Source: Salinigranum rubrum
GTDB lineage: Archaea; Halobacteriota; Halobacteria; Halobacteriales; Haloferacaceae
Assembly: GCF_002906575.1 (NCBI RefSeq)
Contig: NZ_CP026309.1
Location: forward strand, 620,001 to 684,000
DNA: 64,000 nucleotides
Reading direction: 5' to 3'
The position numbers and the translations under genes were made by a program. The notes under the pieces were generated by a model, which was given only the letters and a program-made list of their open reading frames with translations, made no database searches and was not told the DNA's origin. Of the stretch, positions 10,638 to 43,572 are shown in pieces; positions within the stretch are counted from its first letter, which is position 1; each line of letters opens with the position of its first letter.

Positions 10638-11453
10638 TCAGATGAAGTCGGGCAGTTCCTCTTCGGACTCGGCCATGTTGATGTTGACCTCGATGACGTT
10701 GGCGGTGTTCGTCACCGTCTCGACGAGGCGTTGCTGGTACGACTCCTCGCTCATCCGGTTGACCGGCCCGGAGACGCTGATGGAGCCGAGCACCGTCCCG
10801 TGGCGGTCGAGGACCGGCGCTCCGATGGCCTGCAGCCCTTCGATTTCTTCCTCGTCGTTGTACGCGTAGCCGCGCTCGCGCACCCGTTCGAGTTCTGTGA
10901 ACAGTTCCTCGGGGTCGGTGATGGTGTTCTTGGTCTTCTTGACGAGCCCGTACCGGTCGATTATCTCCTCGACGCGCTCTCGGGGCAGATGCGCCAGGAT
11001 GGACTTACCCGTCGCCGAGAAGTGGAGGTAGTCCGGCCGCTGGAGCTTGCTCGTCTGGTACGTGCTGCCGACGGCCTTCGCGCCCTTCACCTTGTAGAGG
11101 TTGACGTTGAGACCGTGTTGCTCCGTCGAGAGGTGCGCGTACTCCTCGGTCTCTTCGGCGAGTTGTTCGATCTCCGGCTTCGCGATGGTGTAGAGGACGT
11201 TCTGGTTCCGGACGTACTCTCCCAGGAGGAGGAACTGCAGCGAGAGCTTGTACGTGGTCCCCTCCTTCACCACGAGTTTGTTCTCGCGCAACGTGGTGAG
11301 GTAGTTGTAGACGACGCTCTTCGAGGTGTCCAGTTCCGCCGCCAACTCGGTCACCCCGGCGCCGTCGAGCTCTTCGAGTGCTCGGACCACGTCCATCGCG
11401 CGCGAGACCGTCTTCAGGGTCCGCGGCGAACGGGCGGTCGGTCGGTCGGTCAT
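10638..11453 (-). CDS. IclR-family transcription regulator, 271 aa
   Basis: The N-terminal winged helix-turn-helix covers about residues 15-80 (VTELAAELDTSKSVVYNYL). The C-terminal IclR effector domain has the signature run HFSATGKSILAHLP and the distal GSISVSGPVNR motif. IclR proteins bind a small carboxylate or aromatic effector and repress or activate adjacent catabolic genes. It lies upstream of and on the same strand as nothing obvious, but next to the amidohydrolase and ABC importer genes, which it probably controls. It is clearly related to the second IclR in this window at 46961. Effector unknown. Confidence 0.94.
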   Translation of the reverse strand: MTDRPTARSPRTLKTVSRAMDVVRALEELDGAGVTELAAELDTSKSVVYNYLTTLRENKLVVKEGTTYKLSLQFLLLGEYVRNQNVLYTIAKPEIEQLAEETEEYAHLSTEQHGLNVNLYKVKGAKAVGSTYQTSKLQRPDYLHFSATGKSILAHLPRERVEEIIDRYGLVKKTKNTITDPEELFTELERVRERGYAYNDEEEIEGLQAIGAPVLDRHGTVLGSISVSGPVNRMSEESYQQRLVETVTNTANVIEVNINMAESEEELPDFI

Positions 11454-11759
11454 ACCCTACGTTTCGGGCTCTGTGTGTTAGCTGTTTGTATTTGCGACAT
11501 TCCGAGCTATCCGCGAGCGTCCTGCTCTCTCCCCGCTCGCACCGCTTCAGAGGTGTACCCCTGAATGCTCCGGCCAACAGCCCGTGTCTCGCCCGTTCCC
11601 GTGTTCTCATTTGGTGCCTACCCGTCTCGTCCGTAACTCCGGACGCGTCCGCACGTGTGGCATTCTCGTCGGTTCGTTGCACCGGCCGTCGGGTCGATCA
11701 CCGGCTCACGTCGGCCGAGAGCGCCCGAACCGACGGGGTTAGAGAAATGAGAACGCCGG
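11454..11759. other. IclR upstream region
   Basis: About 300 bases containing the promoter of the IclR gene and the 3' end of the amidohydrolase transcript. No gene was recognised; open frames on both strands are low-complexity. Confidence 0.4.
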
Positions 11760-13010
11760 TCACTCGGTCGCGAGACGCGCCAGCGCGCCGGCGAGGACGG
11801 CCGTCGCGTTGGCACAGTCCGCCCAGTCAGTCCACTCGCGTGGGTTGTGCGAGATGCCGTCGCGCGACGGCGCGAACAGGAGGGCGGCGTCGGTCACCCC
11901 CGCGATGTGCATCGTGTCGTGCGCCGCCCCCGAGTGCAGGTCCATCGTCTCGACGCCGGCGGCGACGCCCGCGTCGTGCAGCGCCGCCCGACAGCGTTCG
12001 CTCATCGGGACGGGTTCGCGGTCCCACGGTCGTTCGAGTCTGTAGTCGACCGGGCGCTCCGCGGCGATGCGTTCGAGGCTCTTGCGCGCCCGGGAGACGA
12101 TGGCCTCCATCGAGCGGTACTCCACGTCGCGGACGTCGAGGGTCAGTTCCGTCCGCCCGGCGATGACGTTCGGCGCGTTCGGGTGGACGACCCCTTTGCC
12201 GACCGTTCCGACGGCCGTCTCGGACTCCTTCGTCGCCCACTCGGTGGCCGCCGACTCGACGTCGAGGACGAACTCGCTGGCCGCGGCGAACGCGTCCGAC
12301 CGGTCCGTCATCGACGTCGCGCCGGCGTGGTTGGCCTCCCCGACGACTTCCACGGTGCAGCGCGTGAGCCCGGTGATGGTCGTCACGACGCCGGCCGAGA
12401 CGCCCGCCGACTCGAGTCGTTCGCTCTGTTCGACGTGCAGTTCCAGCCACGCGTCCCACTCGCTCGCGTCGACGCGGCCCTCGCCGTCGAAGCCGATGTC
12501 TTCGAGCGCCGCCCCCAGGCTGATGCCGTCGTCGTCCTCGACGGCGAGCGCCTCGCTGACGTCGAGTTCCCCCGAGGCGACCGCCGACCCGAGGAGGCCG
12601 CCGTCGAAGCGCTGTCCCTCCTCCTCGGTGAGCGAGACGACTTCGACGGGACGGTCGGGTTCGACGCCGGCGTCCTGCATCGCCCGGACCGCTTCGAGGG
12701 CGGCGTACACGCCGAGCGGACCGTCGAAGATGCCGCCCTCCGGGACGGAGTCGAGGTGGCTTCCGGCGGCGACCGGTGCCTTCGACGGGTCGGCGCTGTC
12801 GGGACACCACCGGCCGACGATGTTGCCGACCCCGTCGACGCGAACCGAGAGTCCCGCGTCGCGGAGGCGGTCGCAGAACCGCTCGCGGGCCCGTCGGTCC
12901 GCGTCGGTCCCGGTCAGGACGGTCCGGCCGTGACCCGCCGGGACGTCCAGCGCGCCGAAGGCCGCGTTGGACAGGACGTCCTCGCGCAGTCGTTGCTGTT
13001 GGACCTGCAT
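11760..13010 (-). CDS. M20-family N-carbamoyl/N-acyl amino acid amidohydrolase, 416 aa
   Basis: A two-metal amidohydrolase of the hydantoinase/carbamoylase (AllC/HyuC-like) branch of M20. It cleaves N-carbamoyl or related amide groups from amino or ureido acids in the cytoplasm. Metal-ligand motifs are all present: GSHLDS, FDGPLG, TEEEGQRF, ELHVEQ and the late HDTMHIAG; the dimerisation insertion lies between about residues 210 and 325. The ATG at 13010 (MQVQQQRL) is favoured over an in-frame extension to 13097, because a TATA-like GTATATG at 13038-13044 sits at promoter distance. It is divergent from the ABC importer operon, which probably brings in its substrate. Exact substrate unknown. 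Confidence 0.93.
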   Translation of the reverse strand: MQVQQQRLREDVLSNAAFGALDVPAGHGRTVLTGTDADRRARERFCDRLRDAGLSVRVDGVGNIVGRWCPDSADPSKAPVAAGSHLDSVPEGGIFDGPLGVYAALEAVRAMQDAGVEPDRPVEVVSLTEEEGQRFDGGLLGSAVASGELDVSEALAVEDDDGISLGAALEDIGFDGEGRVDASEWDAWLELHVEQSERLESAGVSAGVVTTITGLTRCTVEVVGEANHAGATSMTDRSDAFAAASEFVLDVESAATEWATKESETAVGTVGKGVVHPNAPNVIAGRTELTLDVRDVEYRSMEAIVSRARKSLERIAAERPVDYRLERPWDREPVPMSERCRAALHDAGVAAGVETMDLHSGAAHDTMHIAGVTDAALLFAPSRDGISHNPREWTDWADCANATAVLAGALARLATE

Positions 13011-13310
13011 GGTCGATAGCTGTGTGATTCGCCACCGAGTATATGACTGTTTCCCAATCCGCCGAATCCGGGCGTTGCGCGCGTGTACGATGGACAATTC
13101 GAACCTACATTAACGATGTTGAAGAACCCAAGCGAACGTCCGCTCTCCTCCTTCGAACGAAGCGACGAACCGGGTTAGAGTGAATGATTACACACAAAAA
13201 CGAGGAATCAACCCAAATTCGCCCGGCAATCGTGACAATACACCCGTGACTGCGCGGTTCTCGTCGGGAGTAATCAAAAGTATTATTAGCGGGTACCGGA
13301 ACAACGAACT
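13011..13310. promoter_or_regulatory. Divergent promoter region, amidohydrolase / ABC importer
   Basis: This 300-base space serves both strands. For the importer, TATTATTA at 13281-13288 ends 22 bp before the ATG at 13311, giving an essentially leaderless mRNA. For the amidohydrolase, GTATATG at 13038-13044 plays the same role on the minus strand. The middle is AT-richer than the surroundings and is the likely place for IclR binding. No gene seen. Confidence 0.55.
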
Positions 13311-14962
13311 ATGTCCCAAGATGGCAGTGGCGCCGACGCCAGTCACAGCGACGGCCGTCGGCTCGACAGACGGCAGTTCCTCGCGGCAGCGGCCGCCTCG
13401 GGCGTCCCGGTCGCGCTAGCCGGGTGCGCCGGCGGTTCGAACGAGAGCTCCGGCTCGTCGTCCGGCGGTTCGGGCGGCTCCGGTGGGTCGAGTTCGTCGA
13501 CCGAGGGCGGCTCCTCGGGCGGGTCGGCCAGCACGGGCGGGACGCTCCAGTGGGGTGGCGCGGTTCCCGTCCAGTCGCTCGATCCGCACATCGAGAGCGC
13601 TGCGGCCTCCCAGCGCGTCCTGGAGAACATCGTCGAGGAACTGGTCCAGCTCCAGCCCGACTACTCGCTGGAACCGCACCTCGCGGAGACGCTGGAGCAG
13701 TCCGACGACAACACGACGCTGACGATGAAGCTCCGGGAGGGCGTGACGTTCCACAACGGCGAGGAGATGACCTCCGCGGACGTGCTCGCCTCGTACGAAC
13801 GGGTCGCCAACGGCGAGTACCTCGCCAGCGGCTTCTTCGAGTTCGTCGATTCGATGGAAGCACCCGACGACTACACGTTCGTGGTCAACCTCTCCCAGCC
13901 GTTCGCGCCGTTCGTCGCCCGGATGGCCACGTCGGAACTGGCCGTCCTCCCGGAGGAACAGGCCGCACAGGACCAGATCGAAGAGCCCATCGGCACGGGT
14001 CCGTTCCAGTTCGACTCTCGCGAGATCGAGACGTCGTTCACGATGACGAGGTTCGACGACTACTGGGGCGAGCCCGCGAAGCTCGACCGGGTCGTGAAAA
14101 GCGAGATCACCGATCCCTCGGTCCGCCTGCAGTCGTTCCGCGCCGGCGAGTACGACTTCATCAACGGCATCCCCCGAAGGACGTCCAGTCGGTCCAGAAC
14201 GACCCCTCGATTCGGTTCGAGAAGCAGTTCCCGAAGGCGCTCATCTACCTCGGGCTGAACTGCGACAAGGCCCCGTTCGACAACAAGGACGCCCGCCTCG
14301 CGCTCGACTACGCCATCGACAAGGAGGCGGTCGCCGAGGCGGCGCTGTACGGGACGGGCCGGACCACCGCGACCCCCGCCGCGCCGGGCAGTCCGTGGGT
14401 CAACGAGGACGTCCAGCCGCGGCCGCGGGACCCCGACAAGGTACAGGAGCACCTCGACGCCGCGGGGCTGTCGGACGGCTTCGAGGTCTCGTTTAAGATC
14501 CCGCAGTCGTACCCGACGCAGGTCCAGGGCGCGAAGGTCATCGCGGACCAGGCCTCCGACATGGGTATCTCGATGAACATCCAGCAGATCACGTGGAGTT
14601 CGTGGCTCTCGGACGTCTACTCGAACCAGAACTTCGAGGCGACCACCTCGTCGTACCTCGCGCTCTGGTACCCCGACGTCTCCTTCTACAAGTTCCTCCA
14701 CCCCGACGGGGCGTTCTTCTTCACGGGCTGGACGAACGACGAGTACAACGGGCTCGTCGAGGAGGCCCGCACCATCTACGACGAGGCCGAGCGCGCACAG
14801 CGGTACAAGCGCGCGACCGAGATTCTCCACGAGGAGCGCGCCGGCCACCTGTTCCTCTGGTGGCAGCCGAACCTCTACGGCTCGGTCCCCGAGTACCAGG
14901 GCGACATGGGCTCGCCGGACGGGTCGACGCTCCGCTTCGCCGACAACTACTTCGAAGGATAA
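13311..14962 (+). pseudogene. ABC importer substrate-binding lipoprotein (dipeptide/nickel family 5), frameshifted
   Basis: The N-terminus has a Tat motif (RRLDRRQFL), a hydrophobic stretch and a lipobox (LAGC), then a Gly/Ser linker, so it would be exported folded and anchored outside. The body matches family 5 solute-binding proteins (SLDPHIES, TLTMKLREGVTFHNGEEMT, GTGPFQFDS, and later YLGLNCDKAPFDN). At 14171-14175 a run of five C breaks the frame. Adding one C joins INGIP to PKDVQSVQ and gives a complete protein of about 550 residues with no other damage. Either the assembly lacks a base or the gene is freshly inactivated. It leads the operon with two permeases and a double ATPase. Confidence 0.88.
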
Positions 14963-14983
14963 GCTCTCACCTCACTCACCACC

Positions 14984-15943
14984 ATGTCGATGTACAACTA
15001 CCTGGTGAAGCGACTCGGGTTCATGGCGATCACGCTCTTTTTCGTGACGCTCATCACCTTCGTCGTGACCACCATCCTCCCGGGCGACGTGGCGCTTCTC
15101 ATCCTCGGACCGAACGCGTCGGAGTCGTCCATCCAGGCGCTCCAGGCACAACTCGGGCTCGACCGGCCGCTGTACGTCCAGTACGTCGACTGGGTCGTCG
15201 GCCTCGTCCAGGGGAGCATGGGGCAGTCGCTCCGTTTCGGCGACCCGGTCGTGATGCTCATCGCGGAGAAACTGCCGCGCTCGCTCCTCTTGGCGACCGC
15301 GTCGACGTTCGTCGCCGTCGTCCTCGCCGTTCCGCTCGGCATCATCGCCGCGGTGAAGAAGAACGAACTCCCGGACCTCGGCGCCTCGCTGTTCGGCTTC
15401 GTCGGCATCTCCATCCCCATCTTCCTGTGGGGGCTGGTGTTCATCCTCGTCTTTGCGGTGTGGGCCGGGTGGTTCCCCACGGGCGGGTACGTCTCCCCGA
15501 GCGAGGACCCCGTCGGCACGCTGAAACACCTCGTCCTCCCCGCGACGTCGATGGGCTTCGCGCTCACCGCGTACATCATGCGGATGACCCGCTCGTCCAT
15601 GATCGAGGTCCTCTCCGAGGAGTACATCAACCTCGCCCGCGCGAAGGGGATGACCCAGCGCGTCGTCGTCCTCAAACACACGCTCCGAAACGCCATCATC
15701 CCGGTCATCACGGTCATCGCGTTCCAGTTCAGCTACGCGTTCGGTGGCGTGGTCGTCCTCGAAGAGGTGTTCTTCTGGCCGGGCATCGGCCGGCTGACGC
15801 TGACGGCCATCCAGTCCCGCGACATCCCCCTCCTGCAGGGGTGTATCATCGTCGTCGCGCTCATCTACATGGTGTCGAACCTCGCGGCCGACGTGCTGTA
15901 CGCGTACTTCGACCCGCGCATCCGGTACGGAGGTGGTGAGTGA
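14984..15943 (+). CDS. ABC importer permease, DppB/OppB type, 319 aa
   Basis: Inner permease subunit of a dipeptide/oligopeptide/nickel-class importer. Six membrane segments are visible, starting with the conserved N-terminal helix (YLVKRLGFMAITLFFVTLI). The ATPase-coupling (EAA) loop is EEYINLARAKGMTQRVVVLK. It lies 21 bp after the binding-protein gene and its stop overlaps the next start (TGATG), so the genes are translated together. Fully intact, in contrast to the binding-protein gene. Confidence 0.95.
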   Translation: MSMYNYLVKRLGFMAITLFFVTLITFVVTTILPGDVALLILGPNASESSIQALQAQLGLDRPLYVQYVDWVVGLVQGSMGQSLRFGDPVVMLIAEKLPRSLLLATASTFVAVVLAVPLGIIAAVKKNELPDLGASLFGFVGISIPIFLWGLVFILVFAVWAGWFPTGGYVSPSEDPVGTLKHLVLPATSMGFALTAYIMRMTRSSMIEVLSEEYINLARAKGMTQRVVVLKHTLRNAIIPVITVIAFQFSYAFGGVVVLEEVFFWPGIGRLTLTAIQSRDIPLLQGCIIVVALIYMVSNLAADVLYAYFDPRIRYGGGE

Positions 15944-16902
15944 TGCGGGAGGACCGGGAGCCACCGGTGCGGGAGCCGCGACCGGACGGCGGCGAGGTCA
16001 CCTCGGGGTCGCGCTTTACTCCCTCGGACGCGCAGAAGGAACGCTGGCGGCGCTCCCTCCGACGCTCGTGGGAGTTCCTTCGGCAGTTCCGCCACAACGC
16101 GAAGGCGAGCATCGGGCTGGCCATCGTGCTGGGACTGCTCTTCGTCGCCGCGTTCGCGCCCATCATCGCCCCGTACCCCGTCGATCAGACGAACATTCAG
16201 GACCGCTCGGAGGCACCCTCCGTCGAGCATCCGTTCGGGACCGACGACCTCGGCCGCGACCTGTTCAGCCGCGTCGTGATGGGGTCGCGCATCTCGCTGT
16301 ACGTCGGATTCGGCTCCATCACCGGCGCGCTCCTCGTCGGGACGATAATCGGGGTGGTGTCGGGCTACTACGGCGGCCTCGTCGACGAGGCGCTCATGCG
16401 GGTCATGGACGCGGCGATGTCGTTCCCGCCCATCCTGCTCGCGCTGACCGTCATGGTCGTGCTCGGCCCCGAACTGAACAACGTCATCCTCGCGCTGGCG
16501 TTCGTCTACACGCCGTACATCGCTCGCATCGGCCGGTCTGCCACCCTCTCGGAGCGCAACGAGGCGTACGTCGAAGCCTCGGTGGCGCGCGGGGAGACGA
16601 ACGGCCACATCATCTTCCGCGAGGTGCTGCCGAACTGCATGGCCCCGCTTCTGGTGCAGGGCTCGCTGAACATCGCCTTCGCGATGCTGGCGGAGGCCTC
16701 GCTGTCCTTCCTGGGGCTCGGTGCCCAGCCGCCGACGCCGTCGTGGGGGCTGATGATCAACACCGGCCGCGGGTTCATGCAGAGCGCGCCGTGGATGGTG
16801 CTCGCCCCCGGCGTCGCCATCGCGATCACCGTCATCGGCTTCAACCTGCTCGGTGACGGCCTCCGAGACATCCTCGACCCGAAGGTGGACGCGATAGAAT
16901 GA
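15943..16902 (+). CDS. ABC importer permease, DppC/OppC type, 319 aa
   Basis: The partner permease. It has a hydrophilic N-terminal region of about 50 residues, typical of the DppC family, then six membrane segments. FGTDDLGRDLFSRVVMGSR is the family hallmark after the first periplasmic loop, and ERNEAYVEASVARGE is the EAA coupling loop. The ATG at 15943 overlaps the preceding stop by one base; a GTG at 15940 is the alternative. Its stop overlaps the ATPase start in an ATGA. Confidence 0.95.
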   Translation: MREDREPPVREPRPDGGEVTSGSRFTPSDAQKERWRRSLRRSWEFLRQFRHNAKASIGLAIVLGLLFVAAFAPIIAPYPVDQTNIQDRSEAPSVEHPFGTDDLGRDLFSRVVMGSRISLYVGFGSITGALLVGTIIGVVSGYYGGLVDEALMRVMDAAMSFPPILLALTVMVVLGPELNNVILALAFVYTPYIARIGRSATLSERNEAYVEASVARGETNGHIIFREVLPNCMAPLLVQGSLNIAFAMLAEASLSFLGLGAQPPTPSWGLMINTGRGFMQSAPWMVLAPGVAIAITVIGFNLLGDGLRDILDPKVDAIE

Positions 16903-19070
16903 GTCACTCAGTGCCCCCCAATACGACCGCATCGACCGCGACCGACGGACAGGACGCCCCGCTCCTGCGGGTGGAGGACCTCCGGACCGAGTTCGCCGTC
17001 GAGGGCGGCCGCGTCGTCGCGGCCAACGACGTCTCCTTCGAACTCGACCGCGGCGAGACGATGGGACTCGTCGGCGAAAGCGGTGCCGGCAAGTCCGTCA
17101 CCGCCCGGTCGCTCCTCCAGCTCATCGACTCCCCAGGACAGATCACCGGCGGGAGGGTCGTCTTCGACGGCGAGGACCTCCTCCAGCGCTCGAAAGAGGA
17201 GATGCAGTCCGTCCGAGGCAACCGCATCGCGCTCATCCCGCAGGACCCGATGACGTCGCTCAACCCCGTCCTCACCGTGGGCGAGCAGATCATCGAAACC
17301 ATCACCCACCACCAGGGCACGTCGAAGCGCGAGGCCCGTCAACAGGCCATCGAGGCGATGCGCGAGGTCGAAATTCCCGACGCCGAGTCGAGAATCGACG
17401 ACTACCCCCACGAGTTCTCCGGCGGGATGCGCCAGCGCGTCCTCATCGCCATCGGCCTCTCCTGTCAGCCGGACCTCATCATCGCCGACGAGCCGACGAC
17501 GGCGCTGGACGTCACGACGCAGGCGAAGATACTCGACCTGCTGAACGAGTTGCAGGAAGAGCGCGGGATGGCCGTGTTGATGATCACCCACAACCTGGGC
17601 GTCGTCGCCCAGACGTGTGACCACGTCGGCGTGATGTACGCCGGCAACCTCGTCGAGACCGCTCCGCTCCGCGAACTGTTCCGGACGCCGCGCCACCCGT
17701 ACACGCGCGGGCTCATCGACTCCATCCCGCACGCGGACGTCGAGTACGACCGGCTGCCGACGCTCGACGGGTCGATGCCGGACCTCGAAGCGCTCCCGGC
17801 GGGCTGTAACTTCGCCCCGCGGTGTCCCCACGCCACCGACGAGTGCCGGCAGTCGGGCGACCCGCCGCTGGAGACGGTCGAGGGCTCCGAGACGAAGGCG
17901 GCCTGCATCCGCGCGTCGGAACTCGACTTACAGGCGCGGGAGGTCTCCGAAGCGACCGCCGGCGGTTCGAACATCGACCGGAGCGGCGACCCGCTGTTCG
18001 CCGTCGACGGGCTGAAGAAGCACTTCCCGGCCGGCGAGGGCTTCCTCGACGGGCTCACCCTCTCGCGCGACGGCGGCCTCCCGAGCATCGAACGCCAGTC
18101 GGTGAAGGCCGTCGACGGCATCAGCTTCGACATCTACGAGGGCGAGACGGTCGGCCTCGTGGGCGAGTCCGGCTGTGGGAAGTCGACCGTCGCCCGCACC
18201 GCGCTGCGACTCCTCGACCCGACCGACGGCGAGGTGTACTTCGACGGTCAACCGTTACACGACCTCGGCACGTCGGAGGTCCGGAGCCTCCGCCGCGAGT
18301 TCCAGATGGTGTTTCAGGACCCGCGGAGTTCGCTCAATCCCCGGAAGTCGGTCGGGAAGATCATCGGCCGCGCGATGGAGCGCCACGACATCGCGACCGG
18401 GAAGGAGAAACGCGAACGCGTCGGCGACCTGCTCGAACGCGTCGGCCTCTCACGAGAGGCCGCGAGCAAGTACCCCCACGAGTTCTCCGGCGGGCAGCAA
18501 CAGCGGGTCGCCATCGCGCACGCGCTGGCGGTCGAACCGCGGCTCATCGTCTGTGACGAACCCGTCTCGGCGCTCGACGTGAGCGTGCAGGCGCAGATCC
18601 TCAACCTCCTCGAAGACATCCAAGCGGAGTTCGGCATCGCCTACCTGGTCATCTCCCACAACATCGGCGTCGTGCGACACATCTGCGACCGCGTCGCGGT
18701 GATGTACCTCGGCGAAATCGTCGAGTTCGGCGAGGTCCCACAGGTGTTCGGCCCGCCGTTCCACCCCTACACGGAGAGCCTGCTCTCTGCGGTCCCGGCC
18801 GCGGACCCCGACACGCGGACGGACCGCATCCTCCTCGAAGGGAGCGTCCCGAGCCCCATCGACCCGCCGTCTGGCTGTCGCTTCCGGACGCGGTGTCCGA
18901 AGAAGATCGGGGAGGTCTGCGAGCAGGAGTGCCCCTCCCTCGAAGCGGTCGACGGCGACGACGGTCACCGCATCGCGTGTCATCTCTCGCGCGAGGAGAT
19001 GAGCGAACCCGTCGGCGGCGAGGCGGAGTGGGAGACCGCCAGCGCGAACGCGGGCACGTCCGACGACTAG
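16899..19070 (+). CDS. Fused double ABC ATPase (DppD-DppF), 723 aa
   Basis: Two complete ATPase domains in one chain power the importer. Domain 1 has Walker A GESGAGKS near residue 60, signature FSGGMRQRV and Walker [13 protein letters not shown]. Its oligopeptide-family C-terminal box [14 protein letters not shown] would, by family knowledge, hold an Fe-S or structural site. After a linker of about 25 residues, domain 2 has Walker A GESGCGKS near residue 422, signature FSGGQQQRV, Walker [13 protein letters not shown] and its own box [10 protein letters not shown]. Most bacteria encode DppD and DppF separately; the fusion fixes a heterodimer stoichiometry. Its stop overlaps by four bases that of the convergent DUF1028 gene. 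Confidence 0.96.
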
Positions 19071-19792
19071 TACTTGATCCCCGTTCGGAGGAGTTCCTCG
19101 GGGTAGTTCTCGCCGACGAGTTCGTCGGTCGCTTCTCGCAGTCCGGCCTCGACCGACCGCGCGTGGTCGTACAGCGCTCGTAACTCCCCGACCGGGTCGT
19201 CGGCGCGGTCGACGCGGAGGTTGTGTGCGAGCGACGGATTCGGCGCGTGGACGAGCAGTGCCGCGCTCACCTCGCCGCGTTTGTCCCCGCCGGCGTCGTC
19301 GCCGGCTTCGAGCGCCGCGAGGAGTCGGTCGCCGAGCGGGTCGTCAGGGTCGGTGTCGGCGAACGCCTCGAAGACGCTGTCGACGACCCGTTCGCCGACG
19401 AGCATGTTCCCCGCGACGGTGACGTGCTCACCCGCGCGGTGGCCGCACCACGACACGCAGTCGTCGCCGGTGAACGTGAACGTCCCCGAGGCATCGACGC
19501 CGTGGACCTGCCGGTACCCCGCGTGGTCGTCGGCCGCGAGGAGCGCCCCGCCCGCCTCGTTGACCGCGTCGCCGTCGGCGACGCGGTCGAGCAGGTCGCG
19601 TCCGTGTTCCGTCCGGGTGAACGACTGGGTGAGAACCGCGGCGTCGGCGCTCACGTACGGGCAGGTCGCCCCGACCGCGACGATACCGGTCGCCACCGCC
19701 GTCCCGAACGTCTCGCTGGCCGAGTCGTACGCCGCGATGGAAAAAGTCCCCGGCCGTGCCTCGGCCGGGAGGTGCTCGACGATGTCCTTCAT
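19067..19792 (-). CDS. DUF1028 family protein, 241 aa
   Basis: The N-terminal motif TFSIAAYDSASETFGTAVAT and the following GATCPYVSADAAVLTQS are typical of DUF1028, a family structurally related to Ntn-hydrolases and of unknown reaction. The latter part shows VAGNMLVG and an acidic end. In other genomes DUF1028 genes often sit with peptide-type ABC importers and amidohydrolases (from memory), as here. It may therefore process the compound that the importer brings in. ATG at 19792. It lies tail to tail with the ATPase gene. Confidence 0.88.
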   Translation of the reverse strand: MKDIVEHLPAEARPGTFSIAAYDSASETFGTAVATGIVAVGATCPYVSADAAVLTQSFTRTEHGRDLLDRVADGDAVNEAGGALLAADDHAGYRQVHGVDASGTFTFTGDDCVSWCGHRAGEHVTVAGNMLVGERVVDSVFEAFADTDPDDPLGDRLLAALEAGDDAGGDKRGEVSAALLVHAPNPSLAHNLRVDRADDPVGELRALYDHARSVEAGLREATDELVGENYPEELLRTGIKY

Positions 19793-42169: not shown

Positions 42170-43572
42170 ATGGACAGACTACGTTACGACGTCGTCGTCG
42201 TCGGCTGTGGGATGGCCGGCCTCTCCGCTGGGCTCCGCGCCGCCGAACTGGATCGGTCGGTCGCAATCTTGGAGAAATCGCCGAAGGAACACCGCGGCGG
42301 ACAGACGAGGTTCAGCGAGTCGTTTCGCGTCCCCTCCGCGGAGACGGACCTCTCCGAGTGGGGCTACGAGTTCGCCATCGACGATTACACGCCGGACCAG
42401 TTCTACGAGGACGTGATGGACCGGACGAACGGCCGAGCCGACCCCGAACTCGTCCGAACGCTGGTCGAGAACGCGGCCCCGACGGTCGAGTGGCTCACCG
42501 CCGCCGGCATCGAGTGGGACATGGAGCCGCTCGCGACGGGCTACACCGTCGGGCGGACCTGGTTCGACGGCGAGCAGGGCGTCGCGGCGGTGATCGCCGC
42601 CGCGGAAGACGCGGGTGCCGAGGTGTTCTACGAGGCCGAGGCGCGGCGGCTGCGACGCGGAGACGACGGCGGCGTGACCGGACTCGTGGCCGATTGCGGC
42701 GACGACCGCGTCCGGTTCGACTGCGACGCGGTGGTCGTCGCCGCCGGCGGGTACGAATCGAGCCCGGAGAAGCGAGCGCGGTACTACGGCGCCGGCTACG
42801 ACGACATGAAGGTCCGTGGGAGCCGGTACAACACCGGTGGCGCCATCGAGATGGCGCTCGACGCCGGCGCGAACGCCTGTGGCCAGTGGTCGGGGGCGCA
42901 CATGGCGCTCATCGACGCGGCGTCCCCCGAGGTGGAAGGCGGCGCGAACCGCGTCGACGGCTACCAGTACGGGGTGATCCTCAACGTCGACGGCGAGCGG
43001 TTCGTCGACGAGGGTGAGGACGCTCGGGCGCACACGTACGCGAAGTTCGGCCGGCGGATCTTCGAGCAGCCGCGTCACCGGGCGTACGTCGTGCTGGACG
43101 CCCGCGGGGGGAACTCGCCCGTGCGACGGGACCCTCCGAACCCCACGTGGTCGACTCGCTCGACGAACTGGTCGCCGAACTCGACGTCGACGCCGAACGC
43201 GCCCTGGAAACGCTGCGCCGCTACGACGACGCCTGCGACCCCGACGAGTTCGACCCGCACGTCCTCGACGGGAACGCGACGACCGGGATTCGCCCGCCGA
43301 AGTCGAACTGGGCGATCGGTCTCAGAGAGCCGCCGTACTCCGCCTACGCGGTCACCGGCGGCATCACGTTCGCCTTCGGCGGCGTCGAGATCACACCCGG
43401 CGCGGAGGTCGTCGACACCCGTGGTCGCGTTATCCCTGGGCTGTACGCCGCGGGGAACTCGACCGGCGGGCTCTTCTACGACAACTACCCCGGCGGGACT
43501 GGGCTGATGAACGCGGCCGTCTTCGGAAAGGTCGCGGCCGAGCACGTGGACGACTACCTCGCGGCGCGGTGA
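42170..43572 (+). pseudogene. Fumarate-reductase/tricarballylate-dehydrogenase-type flavoprotein, frameshifted
   Basis: The Rossmann FAD motif VVVVGCGMAGLSAGLRAAE sits at the N-terminus and the typical FAD_binding_2 motifs follow: GRTWFDGEQG, RGSRYNTGGAIEMALDAGA, then GGITFAFGGVEI and AAGNSTGGLFYDNYPGG near the end. The family oxidises or reduces the C-C bond of a di- or tricarboxylate such as succinate or tricarballylate. At 43106-43111 a run of six G breaks the frame. One more G restores DARGGELARATGPSE and a clean product of about 467 residues. The rest is undamaged, so this is an assembly error or a very recent knock-out. ATG at 42170. Confidence 0.87.

Follow-up and report, generated by a model that had tools for sequence, protein, structure and literature searches.

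In the 64,000-nucleotide stretch of the Salinigranum rubrum genome analysed here (the window), the gene for a family 5 substrate-binding protein (SBP_bac_5) of an ABC importer is split by a one-base break of its reading frame, and we put at roughly 90% the probability that this break is a consensus error, one of many in this assembly. One base would have been dropped from the consensus in a G/C-rich stretch, producing an apparent frame break, and the organism would most likely carry an intact binding protein and a working importer. This reading is preferred because one-base losses are numerous across the same genome and include one in an indispensable gene. The original prediction had left three options side by side, namely a wrong sequence, a very recent loss of the receptor and a phase-variable tract. 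The first is strongly favoured by a roughly tenfold density of frameshifts, by the one-base deficit of nearly all of them and by the presence of isoleucyl-tRNA synthetase among the genes hit; the third finds no support among the orthologues.

The site lies on a contig of 4.25 Mb, in a haloarchaeal genome of 4.97 Mb assembled into 6 contigs. The upstream half of the gene (13311..14171, plus strand) codes for a family 5 substrate-binding lipoprotein as far as the first part of its fold, including the signal sequence with lipobox; a Tat-type RR motif and an LAGC sequence that we take to be the lipobox were spotted in it by eye. It matches positions 2-176 of the 368 of the PF00496 profile (E = 1.8e-46; 159.4 bits, cut-off 32.4). 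The downstream half (14174..14962, plus strand) continues the same protein through its stop codon and matches profile positions 180-359 (E = 5.8e-31; 108.4 bits, same cut-off), so that both halves pass the gathering score of SBP_bac_5, and do so in order. The family order of the halves and the order of the operon are those of SBP_bac_5 proteins of Opp/Dpp/Nik-type ABC importers, but, unlike in these, the gene falls into two parts in the present assembly, its reading frame being interrupted at 14171-14175 (plus strand). The frame that begins at 13311 stays open to a stop at 14258, and the coding frame from 14174 onwards is a different one, which is open across the junction and ends with the stop at 14962. 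A codon-usage phase model that was blind to the site placed the frame switch between 14169 and 14177. Two elements of the original prediction are borne out here: exactly five Cs occupy 14171-14175, and the gene carries a one-base frame break, as indicated by halves that are consecutive on PF00496 and by orthologues that are one base longer at this point.

For the comparison at the site we gathered 36 orthologous loci, 3 of which were identical to others over the 300 bases around it, leaving 33 distinct sequences. In all 33, the residues on either side of the junction are separated by a full codon, against two bases in the window. This codon is GCG in 17 orthologues, CCG in 10, GCA in 2, and CCT, GCC, CCA and GCT in 1 each. 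CCC occupies the position in none of the 33, nor does any of them carry a six-C tract at the site. The expectation that only a C from a six-C run could be missing was too specific, and the orthologues do not suggest that a six-C tract was shortened to five, although such a shortening is conceivable given how common CCC is as a proline codon in this genome. In the two closest orthologues, L028 and L022 (81% and 80% identical in the downstream half), the sequence reads ATC CCG CCG, so that the missing base could as readily have been a G as a C; on this comparison, the five-C run may be a product of the base loss rather than its cause. That the loss, judged by the orthologues, need not lie in a homopolymer is a counterweight to the interpretation as an error.

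The frame is open through both halves in 32 of the 33 orthologues. The exception, L045, comes from another haloarchaeal genome, G159, whose copy of the binding-protein gene has a separate one-base break of its own (L057 / L045, G159:C3 near 92150). This break lies about 185 bases upstream of the window's site, at a G run that is one base shorter than in two relatives, and the gene is in frame at the window's site; it could be an error too. Thirteen more matches from the order-wide search, additional to the 33 compared at the site, have open frames of 530-608 codons with no stops.

The frequency of such breaks was measured in the window together with 40 stretches of 20 kb of the same genome (864 kb), with 20 stretches each of two genomes of the same genus, G002 and G003, as controls. 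The codon-usage phase model was trained on known genes and retrained for each genome, and an identical rule was applied to all three: a candidate consists of two coding segments on the same strand, each 120 bases or longer, in different frames and at most 60 bases apart, with each frame open for at least 45 bases into the territory of the other. A looser list of junctions took in ordinary operon overlaps, and the count of 22 is that obtained under the stricter rule. These 22 candidate frameshifts in 864 kb compare with 1 in 400 kb for G002 and 1 in 394 kb for G003, and correspond to about 2.5 per 100 kb, approximately ten times the density in the two same-genus genomes. The control rate predicts 2.2 (Poisson P = 3e-15 for at least 22, treating the two-event rate as exact), and Fisher's test on coding segments, in which the uncertainty of a control rate based on two events is taken into account, gives an odds ratio of 9.5 (P = 1e-4). 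About nine tenths of the candidates thus represent an excess over the control rate. By rough extrapolation, 22 in 864 kb amount to about 127 genome-wide and, given that the scan detects about one-third of breaks, the actual total would run into some hundreds, an equally rough figure.

The direction of the shifts is nearly uniform. Of the 22 candidates, 21 belong to the one-base-missing class (sign test, P = 1e-5), and the sole candidate of the other shift class, of low complexity by inspection, is probably false. Among the 2 candidates in 794 kb of control sequence, 1 is of the loss class; this is the weakly scored G002 candidate, with one base missing beside a six-G run, the G003 candidate being of the other shift class and lying in a repetitive stretch. 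When random indels were introduced into control stretches, the scan recovered 51 of the 160 losses and 48 of the 160 gains; with the two recovered about equally, it is not biased towards the loss class.

Junction stretches, defined as the switch point plus 25 bases on each side, were compared with random coding stretches of the same lengths. A G/C run of at least five bases is found in 14 of the 22 junction stretches versus 10.1% of the random ones (P = 1.7e-9), and a G/C run of at least four in 19 of 22 versus 42.6%. G/C runs of seven or more number 27 here (a value derived from rates) versus about 51 expected from the controls; this shortage also points towards error, although it deserves little weight since base composition differs between the genomes. 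Three features of systematic consensus deletion error occur together: an excess of losses over relatives, an association with homopolymers and damage to an indispensable gene. We infer that the excess of breaks originates in sequencing or consensus calling, in what is probably a long-read assembly that was not sufficiently corrected, and the binding-protein site would probably belong to this excess.

Both halves of 21 of the 22 candidates, and the downstream half of the remaining one, were scanned against Pfam. In 10 of the 21 pairs, the two halves continue one family in order; these are a UvrD helicase, a DUF3179 protein, an Lhr-type helicase, a branched-chain permease, TrkH, a DUF4147 kinase, isoleucyl-tRNA synthetase (DUF5915), a sulfatase, an FAD_binding_2 protein and the binding protein itself. 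The other 11 comprise 6 pairs without a family in one or both halves, 3 pairs with different families (TtuA-like, geranylgeranyl-reductase-like and glycosyltransferase-like), each of which presumably fits one protein of known architecture, and 2 pairs with repeated domains (TrkA_C and BPD_transp_2), where the same family in both halves is compatible with either a split gene or separate ones.

Relatives were compared at 8 junctions in 7 genes selected by us, using 26 orthologue rows and 3 rows of distant or paralogous relatives of the FAD gene. At all 8 junctions the distance between the halves in this genome falls one base below a multiple of three. The distance is a multiple of three in all 29 comparison rows, and exceeds that in this genome by exactly one base in 28; the remaining row, from a helicase, has a shorter loop. 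We note that the FAD_binding_2 gene lies within the window itself, at 42185-43563, where it shows the same kind of split, being one base short with a six-G run in the junction stretch; all 5 related rows compared with it are in frame. Elsewhere in the genome, TrkH and TrkA genes lying close together (L105 5409-10806) were both flagged as one base short, each with a G/C run of five in its junction stretch, and of this pair TrkH was compared with relatives.

The strongest single item in favour of an assembly error is the split of ileS. Isoleucyl-tRNA synthetase is an indispensable enzyme, and a single gene lies above the TIGR00392 (ileS) cut-off in each of the 4 genomes of the genus. In this genome, ileS is split by a one-base frame break adjoining a five-C run (G000:C1 near 1911195; L108 841-3995). 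In the three other genomes, it forms a single open frame, 1067 to 1118 codons long, which takes in a conserved stretch of about 115 residues at the C terminus; this stretch, 81-88% identical in those genomes, here lies in another frame. The frame of the main part remains open past the break, for 1098 codons, and the protein as written ends in unrelated sequence. From its conservation, the C-terminal stretch would appear to be indispensable as well. A true loss of this end, together with breaks in many more genes, is much less likely than systematic one-base losses from the consensus.

As far as the excerpts of the two sources go, false deletions at homopolymers that are two to eight bases long, with four to five the most frequent length, have been reported in PMC12007338, where they turn genes into apparent pseudogenes and affect A/T runs about twice as often as G/C runs, and systematic nanopore indel errors that shift frames in homopolymers have been described in PMC8011154. 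The pattern found here, in which one-base losses split intact conserved genes throughout the assembly, resembles the long-read homopolymer deletion errors of these excerpts. It differs from the assembly treated in PMC12007338 in that all junction runs of five or more are G/C, and from long-read homopolymer errors as presented there in that 8 of the 22 junction stretches are without a G/C run of five or more. Our literature search found nothing on homopolymer frameshifts in haloarchaeal ABC transporter genes.

The next most probable explanation, albeit an unlikely one, is a genuine and very recent inactivation, in which one base was lost and the importer was left without its receptor beside intact permeases and ATPase. 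Such a loss in one gene would look identical at this locus, and would be easier to accept for an accessory and patchily distributed system; indeed, of the 392 genomes sampled from the order, 43 (among them this one) match the downstream half at E 1e-60. A close paralogue that could stand in for this half is absent from the genome, whose remaining matches to it show 27-39% identity (best E = 1.5e-17), a point that has been counted in favour of genuine loss, as has the one-base break found at another position of this gene in G159. The latter is ambiguous, in that its shortened G run may itself reflect an error, and the more elaborate proposal that the break is real and recent and that the two genomes document repeated loss of the receptor, for instance under selection in rich medium, is improbable. 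Against genuine inactivation stands the fact that about nine tenths of the candidate breaks in the sampled part of this assembly exceed the control rate. The condition of the gene also argues against it: with L045 omitted, the 32 remaining orthologues share 86 invariant columns upstream (counted from residue 73) and 123 downstream, of which the window retains 84 and 122, respectively. Its mean identity to these orthologues (0.72 upstream, 0.75 downstream) is within the inter-orthologue range, on the low side, and comparison of both halves with them disclosed no second decay mutation. If the inactivation were nonetheless true, the strain would have shed the receptor of an amidase-linked importer and kept the rest of the operon.

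A -1 slippage of the ribosome at C CCC CGA, whether programmed or tolerated, would yield the full-length protein from the sequence as written, but is very improbable. By inspection, the P-site codon CCC is able to re-pair one base back; however, none of the 33 orthologues has a break at this site, all being in frame there, the 70 bases downstream show no more structure than shuffled sequences (z = -0.60), and the other candidate breaks sit in varied contexts, so that we set a programmed frameshift site aside. The phase-variable tract of the original prediction, which would switch the receptor on and off, has a single-base run at the break to speak for it, yet can scarcely be entertained, as a run of five is short for a contingency tract, G/C runs of at least five are common in this genome (about 185 per 100 kb) and no orthologue has six Cs at the site.

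With about 2.5 flagged frameshifts per 100 kb in the 864 kb sampled, reports of lost genes, pseudogenes or truncated proteins based on this assembly are not trustworthy without reads. With regard to the biology of the importer, a working receptor should be assumed until reads show otherwise.

The genes that follow the binding protein are undamaged, as originally predicted. On the plus strand they code, by open reading frame and family match, for an OppB/DppB/NikB-type ABC permease of 319 aa (14984..15943) and an OppC/DppC/NikC-type permease of 320 aa (15940..16902), followed by a double ABC ATPase of the DppD-DppF type, with two ABC_tran and two oligo_HPY stretches in one chain of 723 aa (16899..19070). 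Two permeases and ATPases beside a binding protein make up an ABC import operon of the Opp/Dpp/Nik type. On the minus strand, the window carries a divergent M20-family amidase of the hydantoinase/carbamoylase type (11760..13097; above the TIGR01879 cut-off), an IclR-type regulator (10638..11453; PF01614 and PF09339) and, at the other end of the operon, a DUF1028 protein (19067..19792; PF06267).

Neither half of the binding protein reaches an NCBIfam equivalog cut-off, so that no substrate can be named from these models. The conserved amidase and IclR neighbourhood indicates that the importer probably takes up the substrate of the amidase, and its cargo is thus probably a hydantoin-, carbamoyl- or ureido-type compound. 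All six named loci have the binding protein, the two permeases and the double ATPase in this same order; the amidase lies beside the binding protein in five of them, the IclR regulator is present in five and the DUF1028 gene in three. The arrangement seen at 10638-19792 of the window, with an IclR regulator, an amidase and an Opp-type importer, and in some cases a DUF1028 protein, recurs in several haloarchaeal genera.
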